Virus record (IMG/VR): IMGVR_UViG_3300020401_000080
Location: 1 to 25,790 of that record
Length of the DNA stretch: 25,790 nt
DNA from: a virus
Reading direction: 5' to 3' (one strand)
Shown: one piece after another, positions 3,482 to 22,887 of the stretch
Position numbering within the stretch: position 1 is the stretch's first letter
Layout of the letters: each line of letters starts with the position of its first letter
The notes under the pieces: model-generated
Seen by the model: only the letters and a program-made list of their open reading frames with translations
What the model was told of the DNA's origin: nothing
Database searches by the model: none
Program-made: the position numbers and the translations under genes

Positions 3482-4027
3482 ATGTTGATCCCTAACGTAC
3501 AGAATTTACAGTTTAACGAACAAGCAGACGTTTTTACAATGATATATGAAGGTGCTGAATCCTTGAAACCAATTCTTACGGAAAAGATCAAAGCACAGGG
3601 AGATCAGCAATATAGAAAAACTAATGTTCAAGCAGACATGACTAAATGGACTATGTTTAATGATCCTGATTTCCAAAAGATTATTGACTTTGCTATTGAC
3701 GTTATCAAAGGTGGTCTAGTCAGTATTCCAACAGGAAAGTTCTTTGCAACAGATTGTTGGGGTGCTTGTTATAAGAAAGGTGATAGTTGTAACGCACACG
3801 CACATCACCCAGCTATTTGGAGTTTCGTTTATTATGTAGATGCAGAACCAAATGATGCACCACTAGTATTTCCAACTAGCCAAAATGCAATATATCCAAA
3901 TACAGGATTAATGATTGTGTTTCCAGGTTGGGTAACTCATAGTGTGCCACCACAAGAAAATGATAAAGAAAGAATTGTGATTGCCGGCAACATTTCTATT
4001 GACAGACAACAGGCAACGAGTGTATAA
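3482..4027 (+). CDS. 2OG-Fe(II) oxygenase family protein
   Basis: 181 aa. The C-terminal half fits the small phage 2-oxoglutarate/Fe(II) dioxygenases: an iron-binding region NAHAHHPAIWSFVYYVD with His106/His108/His109 at the start of the first core strand, GLMIVFPGWVTHSV with the distal His153, and RIVIAGNISI where Arg164 would bind the 2-oxoglutarate carboxylate. The canonical HxD is replaced by HxHH, as in other proteins of the putative 2OG-FeII_Oxy_5 type. The substrate is unknown; phage members are suspected of acting on protein or nucleic acid. The start is the first ATG after the previous stop, with no obvious Shine-Dalgarno. A strong sigma70-type promoter is embedded in the last 30 bases. 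Confidence 0.82.
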   Translation: MLIPNVQNLQFNEQADVFTMIYEGAESLKPILTEKIKAQGDQQYRKTNVQADMTKWTMFNDPDFQKIIDFAIDVIKGGLVSIPTGKFFATDCWGACYKKGDSCNAHAHHPAIWSFVYYVDAEPNDAPLVFPTSQNAIYPNTGLMIVFPGWVTHSVPPQENDKERIVIAGNISIDRQQATSV

Positions 4028-4893: not shown

Positions 4894-5113
4894 ACCATAC
4901 CAACCTTTAGCATGGTTGTTCACTGCAACCTTGATAGGAGCCGCAACAATGGCGGCGTTTAATATGTACCCTTGGTACAGTTATGCGTTCACAGTATCAA
5001 ACTTAGGTTGGGTAGTAATAGGTATATTATGGAAAGAAAAGTCCTTGATTGTTTTAAACGCAGGACTTACAATAATATATATAATCGGTCTAATCAGTGA
5101 TTGGATTAACTAG
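4853..5113 (+). CDS. small three-helix membrane protein
   Basis: 86 aa from ATG 4853 (an in-frame ATG at 4838 would add five residues; neither has a strong Shine-Dalgarno). It overlaps the end of the HAD gene by 41 bases in another frame. Hydrophobic spans lie at about residues 18-37 (PLAWLFTATLIGAATMAAF), 40-59 (YPWYSYAFTVSNLGWVVIGI) and 64-83 (SLIVLNAGLTIIYIIGLI). The pattern NLGWVVIGILWKEK then VLNAGLTIIYIIGL is reminiscent of half-size transporter repeats (SemiSWEET/PnuC-like), but this is only an impression. It is the last gene before the gp43 leader. Confidence 0.72.
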   Translation: MTKNILETRDIQAKPYQPLAWLFTATLIGAATMAAFNMYPWYSYAFTVSNLGWVVIGILWKEKSLIVLNAGLTIIYIIGLISDWIN

Positions 5114-5121
5114 AAGGTATA

Positions 5122-5166
5122 GTCGGCCACAAGCGACAGTTTGGTATTTGCCAGCCTCAAATGGCA
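5122..5166 (+). promoter_or_regulatory. tandem hairpins, candidate gp43 translational operator
   Basis: Two hairpins lie between the upstream stop and the polymerase Shine-Dalgarno (aaggag, 5171-5176). Hairpin 1: stem GTCG/CGAC (5122-5125 with 5134-5137), loop GCCACAAG. Hairpin 2: stem TGCCA/TGGCA (5149-5153 with 5162-5166), loop GCCTCAAA. Both loops are 8 nt and agree at 6 positions (GCCnCAAn). T4 gp43 represses its own translation by binding an RNA hairpin with a 5-bp stem and 8-nt loop just before its ribosome site, so geometry and location match; the loop sequence differs from that of T4. Confidence 0.6.
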
Positions 5167-5181
5167 TACAAAGGAGAATAA

Positions 5182-7863
5182 ATGAGCTACGTAGACGCAC
5201 AATTCGATCGTGACCAAGACGTTATAAGAGTAGTTGAACGTAAAGAAGGTAAACGACATTTCACAGAATATCCTGTAAAGTATACATTCTATTATAAAGA
5301 TCAAAGAGGAAAGTATAAAAGTATTTACGGTGATCCCCTAAATAGAATCGTAGCAAGAAACACAAAGCAGTTTAGAAAAGAACTTGCTATAAATCAAAAC
5401 AAAGAATTATTTGAAAGTGATGTTAATCCAATATTCCAATGTTTAAGTGAACAATACTTAAACGTAGATGCTCCTAAACTTAATGTAGCATTTTTTGATA
5501 TTGAAACAGACTTTGATCCTGAAAGAGGATTTGCTGATCCAAGCGATCCATTTATGCCAATTACTGCAATCACAGTACACTTGCAATGGCTAGATAGTCT
5601 TGTTACATTTGCTATTCCGCCTAAGGGCTTAACAATGGAACAGGCAAAAGAACAAGTAAAAGATTTCCCTAATACATATTTGTATGACAAAGAAGCAGAT
5701 ATGCTTGAAGCATTTCTTGATATTATACAAGACAGTGATATACTAACAGGTTGGAACAGTGAAGGTTATGATATTCCTTATACTATCAATCGTGTTGCAA
5801 GAGTTTTAAGTAAAGACGATACTAGACGTTTTTGTTTATGGAAACAACTTCCTAAGAAACGTGAGTATGAGAAGTATGGTAAAAAAGCAGAAACCTATGA
5901 CCTAATAGGTAGAGTGCATTTAGATAGTTTAGAATTATATCGTAAATACACTTATGAAGAAAGACACACTTACAGGCTTGATGCCATTGGTGAAATGGAG
6001 ATCGGTGAAAAGAAAACTGTGTATGAAGGTACACTCGATCAACTTTATAACAATGACTTCAGAACATTCATCGAGTACAACAGACAAGACGTTGCACTAC
6101 TGGACAAGCTGGATAAAAAACTAAAGTTCATAGATTTATCAAATGAACTAGCTCATGCAAATACTGTTTTGCTACAGACCACAATGGGTGCAGTAGCAGT
6201 TACAGAACAAGCAATTATTAACGAAGCACATCATAGAGGACTACAGGTTCCTAACAGGCCAAAACGTGATGAAGAAAATACTGCGGCGGCAGGAGCCTAT
6301 GTTGCATTTCCTAAGAAAGGTGTACATAAGTGGATAGGTAGTATGGACTTAAACAGTCTATATCCTAGTGTTATTCGTGCATTGAATATGGACCCGGCAA
6401 CTATCGTAGGACAACTACGTCCAGAACATACAGAAGCATACGTACAAGATCAAATGACATTACAGAAGAAGTCATTTGCAGGTGCTTGGGAAGGTAAGTT
6501 TGGTACACTAGAGTATGAAGCAGTTATGGAGAAAAGAAAAGATTTCAACATAACAGTTGACTTTGAAAATGGCGATAGCGAAATGTTAAGTGCCGCGGAA
6601 GTGTATAAACTTATATTTGATAGCAACCAACCTTGGATGCTTACAGCCAATGGTACAATATTAACTAATGAACATGATGGTGTTATTCCAGGACTACTAA
6701 AACGTTGGTATCAAGAACGTAAAGAATTACAAGCTATGAAAGGCAAAGCCATTGAAGCAGGTAATCAAACAGAGATTGCGTTCTGGGATAAAAGACAGCT
6801 AGTTAAGAAGATTAACCTAAATAGTTTATATGGTGCTATTCTTAATCCAGGCTGTAGATTCTTTGATAAACGTATTGGTCAAAGTACAACACTTACAGGT
6901 AGAGCTATTGCAAAACATATGAGCGCCGAAGTTAATAAAGTTATTACAGGCACATATGATCACGTAGGTGATAGCATAATATACGGTGATACTGATTCTG
7001 TTTATTTTAGTGCATATCCTATACTAAAGAAAGAGATTGAAGCAGGACAGATTCCTTGGACAAAAGATAGTGTTATAAAATTATATGATCAAGTATGCGG
7101 AGAAGCAAACAAAACATTTGGCAAGTTTATGATGCAGGCATTCCATTGTCCAAAAAGCCGGTCGGACGTTATTGCGGCGGGTAGAGAGATTGTTGCAGAA
7201 TCAGGATTGTATATTACAAAGAAACGTTATGCGGCTTTGATATACGACAACGAAGGAGTACGTACAGACGTAGACGGTAAAGCTGGTAAGGTAAAAGCTA
7301 TGGGCTTAGATCTTAAACGTTCTGATACTCCTGTGTTTATGCAAGACTTCTTAAGTGAAATACTTATGATGGTATTGCAAGAAAAAAGTGAAAAAGATAT
7401 ACTAGAACGTATCAGTGAATTTAGAACAGAATTTAAACTGCGTCCTGGTTATGAAAAAGGTAGTCCTAAACGTGCAAACAGAATCGGTGACTATCAACGT
7501 AAAGAACAACGTGAAGGTAAAGCTAATATGCCCGGACACGTTCGAGCAAGTATTAACTGGAACACATTGAAACGTATGAATGGTGACAAGTACAGTCAAG
7601 AGATTGTTGACGGTATGAAAGTTATTGTTTGTAAACTAAAACAAAACCCACTAGGCTATACTAGTGTTGCATATCCAACAGATGAACTTAGACTGCCAGA
7701 ATGGTTTAAGGAACTTCCGTTTGATGGCGATGCTATGGAGGAAACAATTATTGACAACAAACTAGGCAATTTAATAGGGGTGTTAAATTATGACGTGGCA
7801 AGTACACTTCAGAAAAACACATTTAATAATTTATTTGACTTTGGAGGCGCAGATGAAAGCTAA
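5182..7863 (+). CDS. 43: DNA polymerase, family B, T4 gp43-like
   Basis: 893 aa (T4 gp43 is 898), the replicative polymerase with 3'-5' proofreading. Exo I FFDIETDF (Asp106/Glu108), Exo II TGWNSEGYDIPY and Exo III YNRQDVALLDKL are all present, so proofreading should be active. Polymerase motif A is MDLNSLYPSVI (Asp389), motif B KKINLNSLYGAI, motif C YGDTDSVYF (Asp603/Asp605). The C-terminal tail NTFNNLFDFG resembles the sliding-clamp-binding peptide at the end of T4/RB69 gp43; the partner would be gp45 at 9658. The start is fixed by aaggag 5 bases upstream of ATG. The leader holds two hairpins that may mediate autoregulation. The clamp loader genes (44/62) that sit near 43 and 45 in T4 are not in the window. 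The 3' end overlaps the next small gene. Confidence 0.97.
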   Translation: MSYVDAQFDRDQDVIRVVERKEGKRHFTEYPVKYTFYYKDQRGKYKSIYGDPLNRIVARNTKQFRKELAINQNKELFESDVNPIFQCLSEQYLNVDAPKLNVAFFDIETDFDPERGFADPSDPFMPITAITVHLQWLDSLVTFAIPPKGLTMEQAKEQVKDFPNTYLYDKEADMLEAFLDIIQDSDILTGWNSEGYDIPYTINRVARVLSKDDTRRFCLWKQLPKKREYEKYGKKAETYDLIGRVHLDSLELYRKYTYEERHTYRLDAIGEMEIGEKKTVYEGTLDQLYNNDFRTFIEYNRQDVALLDKLDKKLKFIDLSNELAHANTVLLQTTMGAVAVTEQAIINEAHHRGLQVPNRPKRDEENTAAAGAYVAFPKKGVHKWIGSMDLNSLYPSVIRALNMDPATIVGQLRPEHTEAYVQDQMTLQKKSFAGAWEGKFGTLEYEAVMEKRKDFNITVDFENGDSEMLSAAEVYKLIFDSNQPWMLTANGTILTNEHDGVIPGLLKRWYQERKELQAMKGKAIEAGNQTEIAFWDKRQLVKKINLNSLYGAILNPGCRFFDKRIGQSTTLTGRAIAKHMSAEVNKVITGTYDHVGDSIIYGDTDSVYFSAYPILKKEIEAGQIPWTKDSVIKLYDQVCGEANKTFGKFMMQAFHCPKSRSDVIAAGREIVAESGLYITKKRYAALIYDNEGVRTDVDGKAGKVKAMGLDLKRSDTPVFMQDFLSEILMMVLQEKSEKDILERISEFRTEFKLRPGYEKGSPKRANRIGDYQRKEQREGKANMPGHVRASINWNTLKRMNGDKYSQEIVDGMKVIVCKLKQNPLGYTSVAYPTDELRLPEWFKELPFDGDAMEETIIDNKLGNLIGVLNYDVASTLQKNTFNNLFDFGGADES

Positions 7864-11940: not shown

Positions 11941-12106
11941 AAGTGAAAAGAAACTAAAAGAAGAACACAAATGGTATGACAAGATAACTGGCGAACTTAC
12001 AAAGGAAAGAAAGTTTGATCGATCTTGGCAAACAGAAGAACTTTTAAAAAGAACTAAAAAAATTAAATTAGCAATCAAGGATAAGTTAGAGAACATTAAA
12101 AAATGA
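11924..12106 (+). CDS. 60-aa basic protein, unknown function
   Basis: Very Lys-rich helical protein (MSKASKSEKKLKEEHKWYD, then KFDRSWQTEELLKRTKKIKL). The ATG lies 17 bases before the end of the TGT-like gene with ggaggag upstream, and the gene ends in an ATGA overlap with the next oxygenase. It could bind nucleic acid through charge, but no motif supports a specific role. Confidence 0.68.
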   Translation: MSKASKSEKKLKEEHKWYDKITGELTKERKFDRSWQTEELLKRTKKIKLAIKDKLENIKK

Positions 12107-12696
12107 ACGCAACTGCACTATTTTCAACTTTATTATTAGAAGAGCATCTTGATTTAGATAACAAGACCATTAAGCAGGCTTGTTATGATATGAAAGAAGA
12201 TCAGCACTATAATGAACAAGAAGGTGGTTGGCAGAGTGATAGGTATTTAGGCGATCATAGATTTAGTGATCTTAAAAAAGCAGTAGATGATATGGCTAAA
12301 AAAGTAACTGAGGAATACTATACTCTTTGCTGTCCCATACAAAGAAAGAACGAATGGATAAACATTAACTATCCACACGGTGCAGAAACTAACATTAATC
12401 AAGTTCATATGCACGATAGAAATGTTTTAAGTTTTGTTTACTATGTACAAGCAGATGAAGATTGTGGTATGCTAACTTTGTTTAGTCCACATCAGTTATA
12501 TGATCAGGCTGTTCCGTATAGATATGTTAAACATCCTAATGAATGGAATAGCACTAGATTTAGGATTGAACCAAGACCTGGTAAGCTAGTTTGTTTTCCT
12601 AGTTACTTGTTGCATCAGGCTAATGCAAATAAAAGTAAAAGAGATAGAATTAGTATTGCCTTTAACGCAGATATTAACGATGGGAGTTTTCAATGA
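12103..12696 (+). CDS. 2OG-Fe(II) oxygenase family protein
   Basis: 197 aa. The double-stranded beta-helix core shows VHMHDRNVLSFVYYV (His102, His104, Asp105 as candidate iron ligands), GKLVCFPSYLLHQ with distal His171, and KRDRISIAFN where Arg182 would hold 2-oxoglutarate. The layout is the same as the 3482 protein, so they are distant paralogues. A 90-residue N-terminal helical region precedes the core. The substrate is unknown. It lies two genes after the TGT-like gene and is coupled to both neighbours by ATGA overlaps, so a link to base modification is possible but unproven. Confidence 0.82.
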   Translation: MNATALFSTLLLEEHLDLDNKTIKQACYDMKEDQHYNEQEGGWQSDRYLGDHRFSDLKKAVDDMAKKVTEEYYTLCCPIQRKNEWININYPHGAETNINQVHMHDRNVLSFVYYVQADEDCGMLTLFSPHQLYDQAVPYRYVKHPNEWNSTRFRIEPRPGKLVCFPSYLLHQANANKSKRDRISIAFNADINDGSFQ

Positions 12697-15397: not shown

Positions 15398-15863
15398 GAA
15401 TAGAAAAAGAACAATATATGATAGAACAGGAAAGATACCATATCTCGTTAGATGGTACATTTTCCTTAAAGATCGAAAGAGCTTCCCGTTCAATGTCACT
15501 TTGCATAAAATATTAGTAAGTGATGAGCCTGTACTACATGACCATCCTTGGAGTTGGGGTACAATGATCCTGAAAGGTGGGTATTGGGAACACACGCCGT
15601 TAAGAGCCGAAGAAGGTCATGTAGTAGGTAGTACTAGAAAATGGTGGGGACCAGGTACTGTAAGATTTAGAAAAGCAGATGACCTACATTGGTTAGAACT
15701 TGCTAAAGATAAAGACGGTAATGAAATTCCATGTTGGAGTTTATTTTATATGGGTAAGAAAGCCAAAGACTGGGGCTTTATGCAAAACGTAAAAGACATA
15801 GGATATCGTTGGATACATAATGAAAAATATTTGAAAGATAGAAAAGTAGATGAGAGAACCTAA
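15381..15863 (+). CDS. cupin-fold protein
   Basis: 160 aa from ATG 15381 (ATG 15384 and GTG 15369 are alternatives; no strong Shine-Dalgarno decides). The cupin metal-site pattern is visible: VLHDHPWSWGTMILKGGYWEH, where HxH and a distal acidic/His position follow the first strands, then WWGPGTVRFRKADDLHWLEL with the second-motif His. Trp and Tyr residues are frequent (KKAKDWGFMQN, GYRWIHNEKY). Such stand-alone cupins can be sugar isomerases, dioxygenases or binding proteins; the substrate is unknown. It sits between the glycosyltransferase and the tandem oxygenase and overlaps the latter by 14 bases. Confidence 0.75.
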   Translation: MMDLFKNRKRTIYDRTGKIPYLVRWYIFLKDRKSFPFNVTLHKILVSDEPVLHDHPWSWGTMILKGGYWEHTPLRAEEGHVVGSTRKWWGPGTVRFRKADDLHWLELAKDKDGNEIPCWSLFYMGKKAKDWGFMQNVKDIGYRWIHNEKYLKDRKVDERT

Positions 15864-17031
15864 AGTTACAGAAAAGTTAGACGGAAGAATGTTCATCTTT
15901 GATGATGCATTTGAACCACCTGAACTAAATGAGCTTGTACGTGATGTACAGAACTGGCCATACTTATATGGAGAAGTTGATGACGGTGATTTGCCGCCAA
16001 CAGGAATGAGTACAGGTGAATATACAGGTACAAAAACATTTCATGCACTTTGGGAGTTTTGTGAAAAATATGTTCCACAAGTACACGGTTGTATATTAAA
16101 AAGATCACACGCAAATATATTTGCTCCAAGAGAGCCTGCTTTTTATCACGTAGATGATGAAAGTGATGAAGCATGGACATTTATGTTTTATGCAAATAAT
16201 AATTGGGACATAAACGATGGCGGTGAAACAAAGTTTATTACTAACTTACAAAATAAAAAAGAAGGATATGAAGGAACAGAGTATCCTGAGATAATTGCTA
16301 TTCCACCTATTCCAGGCAGAATACTTATATGGAAAAGTAACGTATTACATACTGCAACACCTATGAGAAACACACATAGGTTTACACCTACGTTTAAGTT
16401 TATAAAGTTCTTAAAAGAAAAGCATGGTAAAGGTGAAGGTGGTATTGTAATGGGTCAAAAGGAAACTTATCCTTGGCACAAAGAATACGTGCCACCTATG
16501 CCTATCACAAGTGAATTGCATAACATAGTAAACATAAACGTATATGAAACAAACTTAACTAACGTAGACGACAAGGAAATATTAGATTGTGTAAGCAAGT
16601 ATGATAACGAAAGGATTGATGATAATCCTGAAGATACACACTATGAAGATTTTAAATTTCCAAACAATCCTTGTTGTATGCACTTCATGAGTGAAATAGA
16701 AAAAGCAGTTAAGCAATATACAAATGAAGATTTAGAACTAACTGGAATATGGACACACAAAACAGAACCAAATGGTAGTACTGCCTTTCATAGTCATACT
16801 AAAAGTAAATGGTCTTTTGTGTACTATCCAGCTCACGAGGAAGGTCAAGGTAACTTGCACTTTACAGTATTTGTAAATGATATGCCTCGTTTTGAAAAAG
16901 AGATACAACCTAAAGCAGGTATGCTCTTAATATTTGATTCAAAGATTTCTCATTACACAGGGAAAAATGTAACGGATACTGATAGGTACTCTATTAGTGG
17001 TAACTTTAATATTAGGAGTAACAATGATTAA
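15850..17031 (+). CDS. two-domain 2OG-Fe(II) oxygenase
   Basis: 393 aa holding two dioxygenase-like units. The N-terminal unit (about 1-190) has YHVDDES (His100, Asp102), HTATP with distal His167 and HRFTPTFKF (Arg177), a canonical HxD...H...R set. The C-terminal unit (about 220-390) has TAFHSHTKSKWSFVYYP (His314/His316), SKISHYTG with His368 and DRYSISGNFNI (Arg379), of the HxH type also found in the 3482 and 12103 proteins. Both sets of ligands look intact, so two different active sites may work on one substrate or one protein may bind and one act. The substrate is unknown. A linker with GKGEGGIVMGQKE joins the units. Confidence 0.82.
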   Translation: MREPKVTEKLDGRMFIFDDAFEPPELNELVRDVQNWPYLYGEVDDGDLPPTGMSTGEYTGTKTFHALWEFCEKYVPQVHGCILKRSHANIFAPREPAFYHVDDESDEAWTFMFYANNNWDINDGGETKFITNLQNKKEGYEGTEYPEIIAIPPIPGRILIWKSNVLHTATPMRNTHRFTPTFKFIKFLKEKHGKGEGGIVMGQKETYPWHKEYVPPMPITSELHNIVNINVYETNLTNVDDKEILDCVSKYDNERIDDNPEDTHYEDFKFPNNPCCMHFMSEIEKAVKQYTNEDLELTGIWTHKTEPNGSTAFHSHTKSKWSFVYYPAHEEGQGNLHFTVFVNDMPRFEKEIQPKAGMLLIFDSKISHYTGKNVTDTDRYSISGNFNIRSNND

Positions 17032-21990: not shown

Positions 21991-22887
21991 ATGGCAGAGA
22001 AGAAGTATTATTACAGTGAAATATTTCATTCGATTCAGGGTGAAGGACATTATACAGGTGTCCCAACTGCATGGATACGTTTCTTCTTATGCAATTTACA
22101 ATGTAGTGGCTTTGGACAAATAGATCCAACAAATCCAGATACATATGATTTGCCATTTTTGAACTATGATGTAAGCCAAGTAAAAAGAGTTGAAGACTTG
22201 CCTGTATGGGAAAAAGGTTGCGATTCAAGTTATACTTGGGCTAAGAAGTACAAGCATCTAATGGGGCAAGAAACTCCTGAAGTATTAGCTAACAAGATTG
22301 TTGATATACTAAAGACGGATTCGAACCCAGAAGGTAAGTTCTTACATCCTATGAGTAAGCAAAGACAACACTTATGTTTTACTGGCGGTGAGCCTTTAAT
22401 GGTTACAGGACAGGCGGCAAGTGTTGGCATATACAACGAATTATTAAAGCAAGGTAACTTGCCAGAGTCAATGACTTTTGAAACTAATGGTACACAAAAG
22501 TTAAAACAAGAATTTAAGGATTGGGCTACAGGAATAGATCAAGAAGTGTTCTTTAGTTGTAGTCCTAAATTGTTTACAGTTAGTGGTGAACAAACTAAAA
22601 AAGCAATCATTCCAGAAGTAGTTGGTGAATATAGACAAGTTTCTAAAGCAGGACAATTAAAATTTGTTGTAGGATCTGAACAAAGACAATGGGACGAAAT
22701 GGATTCTGCTATAGAAAAATTTAGAGCAGAAGGTGTAGATTGGCCTGTATGGATAATGCCTGTAGGGGCTAGAGAAGAAGAGCAAACTGCGACAGCCGGA
22801 GACGTTGCTAAATTGGCTTTTCAACGGGGATATAACGTGGCGGCAAGAGTTCACGTTTATCTGTTTGGTAATGCAATTGGCACGTAG
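21991..22887 (+). CDS. queE: 7-carboxy-7-deazaguanine synthase-like radical SAM enzyme, split cluster motif
   Basis: 298 aa, longer than usual QueE (about 210-245). QueE contracts 6-carboxytetrahydropterin to 7-carboxy-7-deazaguanine. The N-terminus YYSEIFHSIQGEGHYTGVPTA is the QueE signature. The radical SAM cysteines normally read CxxxCxxC followed by D-x-YTW. Here FLCNLQCSG gives Cys34 and Cys38, but the third, Cys77, appears only in KGCDSSYTWAKK, after 38 residues instead of two. CFTGGEPLM (129-137) is the usual SAM-binding GGEP loop, and FETNGT and FSCSPK match the ETNG and SPK strands. The insertion (39-76) is probably a loop at the cluster face. GC and codon usage are like the neighbours. 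The FolE and QueD-like genes complete the preceding steps; QueC is absent. Confidence 0.85.
   Translation: MAEKKYYYSEIFHSIQGEGHYTGVPTAWIRFFLCNLQCSGFGQIDPTNPDTYDLPFLNYDVSQVKRVEDLPVWEKGCDSSYTWAKKYKHLMGQETPEVLANKIVDILKTDSNPEGKFLHPMSKQRQHLCFTGGEPLMVTGQAASVGIYNELLKQGNLPESMTFETNGTQKLKQEFKDWATGIDQEVFFSCSPKLFTVSGEQTKKAIIPEVVGEYRQVSKAGQLKFVVGSEQRQWDEMDSAIEKFRAEGVDWPVWIMPVGAREEEQTATAGDVAKLAFQRGYNVAARVHVYLFGNAIGT

Follow-up and report, generated by a model that had tools for sequence, protein, structure and literature searches.

A candidate tandem pseudoknot operator precedes the DNA polymerase gene in a large group of uncultured aquatic phages

The gene 43 leader of the window

What is the function of two adjacent and similar small hairpins directly in front of the ribosome-binding site of a phage DNA polymerase gene? 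The gene concerned (5182..7863, plus strand, AUG at 5182) lies in the window, i.e., the whole stretch of 25,790 nucleotides analyzed here, and encodes a family-B DNA polymerase of 893 aa (PHROG 262, E 7e-198). This polymerase is of the T4 type (gp43), carries the domains DNA_pol_B and DNA_pol_B_exo1, and has its best match among solved structures in 1clq (E 3e-64), which we take to be RB69 gp43. The gene 43 leader comprises 68 nt and follows a small ORF, the stop of which ends at 5113. The original prediction described two adjacent hairpins at 5122-5166, with stems of 4 and 5 bp and 8-nt loops identical at six of eight positions, the second hairpin ending 4 nt before AAGGAG, and is exact in each of these points. 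The hairpin of unit 1 (5122..5137, plus strand) consists of stem S2, formed by GUCG (5122-5125) and CGAC (5134-5137), and the loop GCCACAAG (5126-5133), and that of unit 2 (5149..5166, plus strand) of UGCCA (5149-5153) and UGGCA (5162-5166) with the loop GCCUCAAA (5154-5161). Shine-Dalgarno (SD) sequence AAGGAG follows at 5171..5176 (plus strand), 4 nt 3' of unit 2. The description as plain hairpins was too narrow, in that it missed a GGU 5' of each hairpin (5116..5118 and 5143..5145, both plus strand) that is complementary to the loop GCC at 5126-5128 and 5154-5156, respectively; the unit is larger and probably a pseudoknot.

Taken alone, the window sequence is suggestive only, as its single pair of hairpins with 8-nt loops alike at 6/8 positions compares with at least one comparable pair anywhere in 8 of 200 length-matched windows randomised with a Markov-1 model. 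The folding energy of the leader has no thermodynamic significance (z = -0.26), and the case for a leader element rests on comparison. Unconstrained folding yielded a pair probability of only 0.04 for hairpin 1, whereas the inner pairs of hairpin 2 reached approximately 0.83. No other copies of the unit were found in the window, where the best other matches had E values of at least 1.7. The window also encodes three 2OG-Fe(II) oxygenases (3482-4027, 12103-12696, and 15850-17031; PHROG 81), none of which is preceded by a unit, and a QueE-like radical SAM protein (21991-22887; PHROG 2076), which suggests 7-deazaguanine chemistry in this phage.

Conservation and covariation among gp43 leaders

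Four IMG/VR scans with gp43 queries, a fifth scan from a more distant member, and pattern scans provided 369 distinct 120-nt gp43 leaders, namely 361 from uncultured phages and eight from cultured outgroups. Applying strict criteria, the unit was present directly before gp43 in 307 of the 369 leaders, either as one copy (154) or as two copies (153), and was located further upstream, 160-840 nt from gp43 and ahead of inserted genes, in 28 leaders. Under the same criteria, 34 leaders had no unit within the first 1.5 kb. These include the eight cultured outgroups, four leaders in which the AA of the unit is not in register, two with a unit at approximately 1.5 kb upstream, one with a unit approximately 170 nt upstream (L123), and 19 clade leaders without a unit in the recovered sequence. 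Whole-record searches of 14 records without a near unit revealed none further away, except in L123. Rather than losing the stems or the loop, an outcome that the original prediction had set as its refutation, relatives retained them in hundreds of leaders. The carriers of the unit form a large assemblage of uncultured phages from aquatic habitats, with records of up to 357 kb.

The nearest cultured relatives (gp43 37-49% identical), including jumbo phages, are devoid of the unit, as is T4. In four of these eight outgroup records (L085, L088, L089, and L090), gp43 is instead preceded by a different type of hairpin, which is strong and rich in G+C. Otherwise close relatives of the L245-L252 type (L048, L074) form a clade without the unit; in the L048 type, gp43 directly follows the gene whose place in the window is one ORF further upstream.

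The arms of S2 vary freely in sequence yet remain complementary. All 108 distinct units have standard pairs at the four inner positions, with three to four pair types per position and exchanges between GC, AU, CG, and UA. Covariation of the stems among relatives, for which the original prediction had proposed a test, is evident from a score of 0.986 for S2 in 36 representatives, as compared to 0.274 in shuffled and at most 0.177 in slid controls. Because circularity had to be avoided, a linear pattern was searched without a stem requirement. A stem of 4 bp or more was present in 196 of 209 leader matches of this pattern vs. 33 of 472 matches elsewhere, and most of these 33 are copies of the unit that lie ahead of genes inserted in front of gp43. 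The loop is 8 nt long in 179 of 203 units and 9 nt in the remainder, and its consensus is GCCnnAAR with variable positions 4-5. Sequestration of the SD by the loop was considered and ruled out by this variability and by the SD being predicted as unpaired.

The second conserved sequence, GGY, is located 6-8 nt 5' of each loop and is complementary to the loop GCC. With loops chosen blind to GGY, this partner was found for 460 of 463 units with a GCC loop. GCU loops, which occur in two separate lineages (the L062/L068/L071/L073 type and the L103/L553 type), had an AGY partner in four of four units, and the mixed combinations, GCC with AG or GCU with GG, were never seen. GGY-GCC or AGY-GCU complementarity thus extends to 464 of 467 in-register units; the exceptions are three GCC loops without an in-register GGY, one of which merely has a longer spacing. 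Two further matches with GCA loops were rejected as off-position chance hairpins. As MAFFT did not align GGY across differing lengths of L1, model R1 represents S2 and a smeared GGY. The GGY-GCC helix (S1) was instead tallied with a script and on the alignments A3 and A4, which are subsets with fixed spacing (with one A4 row, of the L068 type, shortened by one A), in which crossing brackets showed S1 to be 100% paired.

The first pair of S1 is compensated between G-C and A-U in two lineages, the second is invariant, and the third is mostly U-G and otherwise C-G, which points to RNA rather than DNA as the functional molecule. With one compensated, one invariant, and one U-G/C-G pair, the S1 helix is strongly suggested rather than proven, and contact with a protein could explain part of the GGY conservation, given the invariant second pair and a compensation that derives from two lineages. 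Within the unit, the elements follow one another (GGY - L1 - S2 - GCC - nnAAR - S2') as they do in an H-type pseudoknot. Judged by length, the loops could span the helices, with L1 of 1-4 nt crossing the 4-5 bp of S2 and the A-rich L3 of 5-6 nt crossing the 3 bp of S1, and both crossing helices display compensatory change, overwhelmingly so in S2. The complementarity of GGY to GCC, replaced by AGY where the loop has GCU, suggests that each unit is probably a small H-type pseudoknot.

The position of the unit relative to the ribosome site is constrained as well. In the relatives, the last S2 mostly ends 0-3 nt 5' of the SD core. One-copy leaders have retained the proximal unit, which ends 9-17 nt before the AUG in nearly all of them, and the loop-to-loop distance in two-copy leaders is 28-29 nt in 141 of 153 cases. 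In a quick FastTree phylogeny of gp43, two-copy leaders are found on either side of the deepest split of the clade, and a large one-copy group is nested within the clade. The proposed duplication holds for the window leader; two copies are not essential, because a large clade has only one. The rigid spacing of the two copies is compatible with cooperativity and does not by itself prove it.

Linkage to gene 43 and to genes inserted before it

The constant partner of the unit is gp43. In a pattern scan of IMG/VR, gp43 was located downstream of 236 of 238 matches (212 at up to 100 nt, 22 at up to 1 kb, and two at 1.5 kb). For one of the two other matches, the contig ends after 91 nt, and the second resembles a chance match. 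Pattern matches were always on the sense strand and at a fixed distance from the SD. Every model match with E < 0.05 in 15 records of 82-357 kb was at gp43, and none of the whole records searched had a unit at nucleotide-metabolism genes. The only significant model match in a genome bin with a 335-kb phage contig was likewise at gp43. This contig (L637, PBPT01000016.1) resembles a phage genome and comes from a bin that is a MAG of Candidatus Neomarinimicrobiota; the gp43 it encodes is 80% identical to the gp43 of the window and has TTG as start codon.

The gene between unit and gp43 in the 28 leaders with a more distant unit is 2OG-Fe(II) oxygenase-like, a member of the uncharacterized MFKK family, or a small ORF, and in two further cases, L458 and L517, a 499-aa ORF that is tryptophan-halogenase-like, as named from its sequence alone, takes this place. 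Where a gene is inserted, the unit precedes the SD of the new first gene. In 25 of the 28 leaders, the upstream stop and the start of gp43 are at most 4 nt apart, with ATGA overlaps in 13. Translational coupling would carry control from the inserted gene to gp43.

A putative autogenous operator and its alternatives

Phage T4 gp43, when not replicating DNA, binds a hairpin beside its own ribosome site and thereby exerts autogenous control. Most work on this control concerns T4 and phages closely related to it; not all T4-related gp43s autoregulate, and no evidence of a pseudoknot was reported for the T4 operator (PMC3014915). As read from the genomes, the T4 operator consists of AGCCU, the loop AAUAACUC, and GGGCU, and the RB69 operator of AGAC, the loop AAUAACUC, and GUCU. 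The suggestion that the window phage follows the T4 logic with another loop stood insofar as we found a conserved, gp43-specific RNA element in the position of the T4 operator with the same hairpin size and a different loop. Similar to the T4/RB69 gene 43 operator, the unit lies in the leader of the homologous gene, directly 5' of the SD, and has a 4-5 bp stem and an 8-nt loop. Unlike this operator, its loop is GCCnnAAR instead of AAUAACUC (UAAC; UAAA in RB49), it has a conserved, probable GGY-GCC pseudoknot helix for which the T4/RB69 operators have no partner, it occurs in tandem copies in many carriers, and its binding by gp43 is putative. The T4 gene 32 operator, by which gene 32 is under autogenous control, is an H-type pseudoknot, as the unit probably is, and also lies 5' of the SD of a gene for a replication protein (PMC535899). 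It differs from the unit in the gene that it precedes (32 instead of 43), its larger helices, the tandem copies of the unit, and the UUAAA repeat array, which is absent from the leader studied here. Searches against Rfam 15 gave no match at the gathering score and nothing credible at E up to 10, and no published description of the unit was found in the open-access literature searched. By analogy, the unit may work like a T4-type gp43 operator; it is not classed as a member, because the loop sequence and the absence of a pseudoknot both fail to match.

Among the leaders compared, conservation, covariation, a fixed distance to the ribosome site, and exclusive linkage to gp43 and its operon are demonstrated. 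We propose, with a probability of roughly two in three, that the leader region 5116-5166 controls the translation of gene 43 as a tandem operator composed of H-type pseudoknots, which is bound by free gp43 and mediates feedback repression. That gp43 itself is the most likely ligand is suggested by the exclusive linkage, the homology, and the matching architecture; the effect would be repression, and the two units may cooperate. Briefly, each unit would be built from S1 (GGY with loop GCC, 3 bp), L1 (1-4 nt), S2 (4-5 bp of free sequence), and L3 (nnAAR). Free of DNA, gp43 would bind the proximal unit, aided by the distal unit where present, and thereby stabilize the fold beside the SD and block entry of the 30S subunit, so that polymerase output would be set by feedback. 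Weighing against this proposal are the ordinary stability of the leader and the poorly predicted hairpin 1, the 19 clade leaders and the nearest cultured relatives that lack a unit, and the existence of T4-related gp43s that do not regulate themselves.

It is possible, albeit much less probable than binding of gp43, that another trans-acting factor controls gp43 translation, such as the SSB or a non-RegA regulator of the phage, or an RNA-binding protein of the host. In line with this, one record contains a gp32-like ORF (below the family cut-off), and the pseudoknot topology is known from T4 gene 32, which is controlled by its SSB (PMC535899). However, a global regulator should have further targets, yet the element occurs only at gp43, and no gene for RegA (PF01818), the other translational repressor of T4, was found in six large and possibly incomplete records by a search that did find RegA of T4 and RB69. 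The missing RegA also speaks for gp43 as the ligand.

Some riboswitches are compact pseudoknots with an A-rich third loop beside the SD, and the unit resembles PreQ1-I and other small pseudoknot riboswitches in its probable compact H-type fold with such a loop adjoining the SD. A small-molecule riboswitch, e.g., one sensing nucleotides, that tunes polymerase synthesis is nevertheless improbable. The variable loop positions 4-5 leave few invariant residues for a pocket, and, unlike these riboswitches, the unit lacks an Rfam match and is linked only to a DNA polymerase gene, to the exclusion of nucleotide-metabolism genes in whole records. We regard a ligand-free structural leader, serving mRNA 5'-end protection, processing, or ribosome standby, as unlikely to a similar degree. 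An unpaired SD, as predicted, and a fold at a fixed place beside it would suit such a role, but general elements should also precede other genes, whereas the unit is confined to gp43, and the invariant residues of the GCCnnAA loop and the rigid spacing suggest specific recognition. A DNA-level element (a protein-binding inverted repeat, promoter, or replication origin) could likewise present short inverted repeats in a fixed arrangement but is highly improbable, as the arms vary and stay complementary, the third S1 pair is mostly U-G, and the matches keep to the sense strand at a fixed distance from the SD.

Beyond the window, we give even odds to the broader proposal that previously undescribed, tandem mini-pseudoknot cis-regulators control polymerase synthesis in a large clade of uncultured phages with records of up to 357 kb, and that inserted oxygenase and halogenase-like genes share the feedback loop. 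If true, the inserted genes would also be expressed according to the amount of free polymerase. A very divergent and abundant polymerase clade would then use a different RNA recognition element at the same site, for which hundreds of natural variants are available. Such a target, defined by covariation, could help to understand the evolution of new RNA specificity within a single polymerase fold, and may also be useful for studying possible cooperation between tandem operators and the way in which genes acquired downstream of an operator become coupled to replication.
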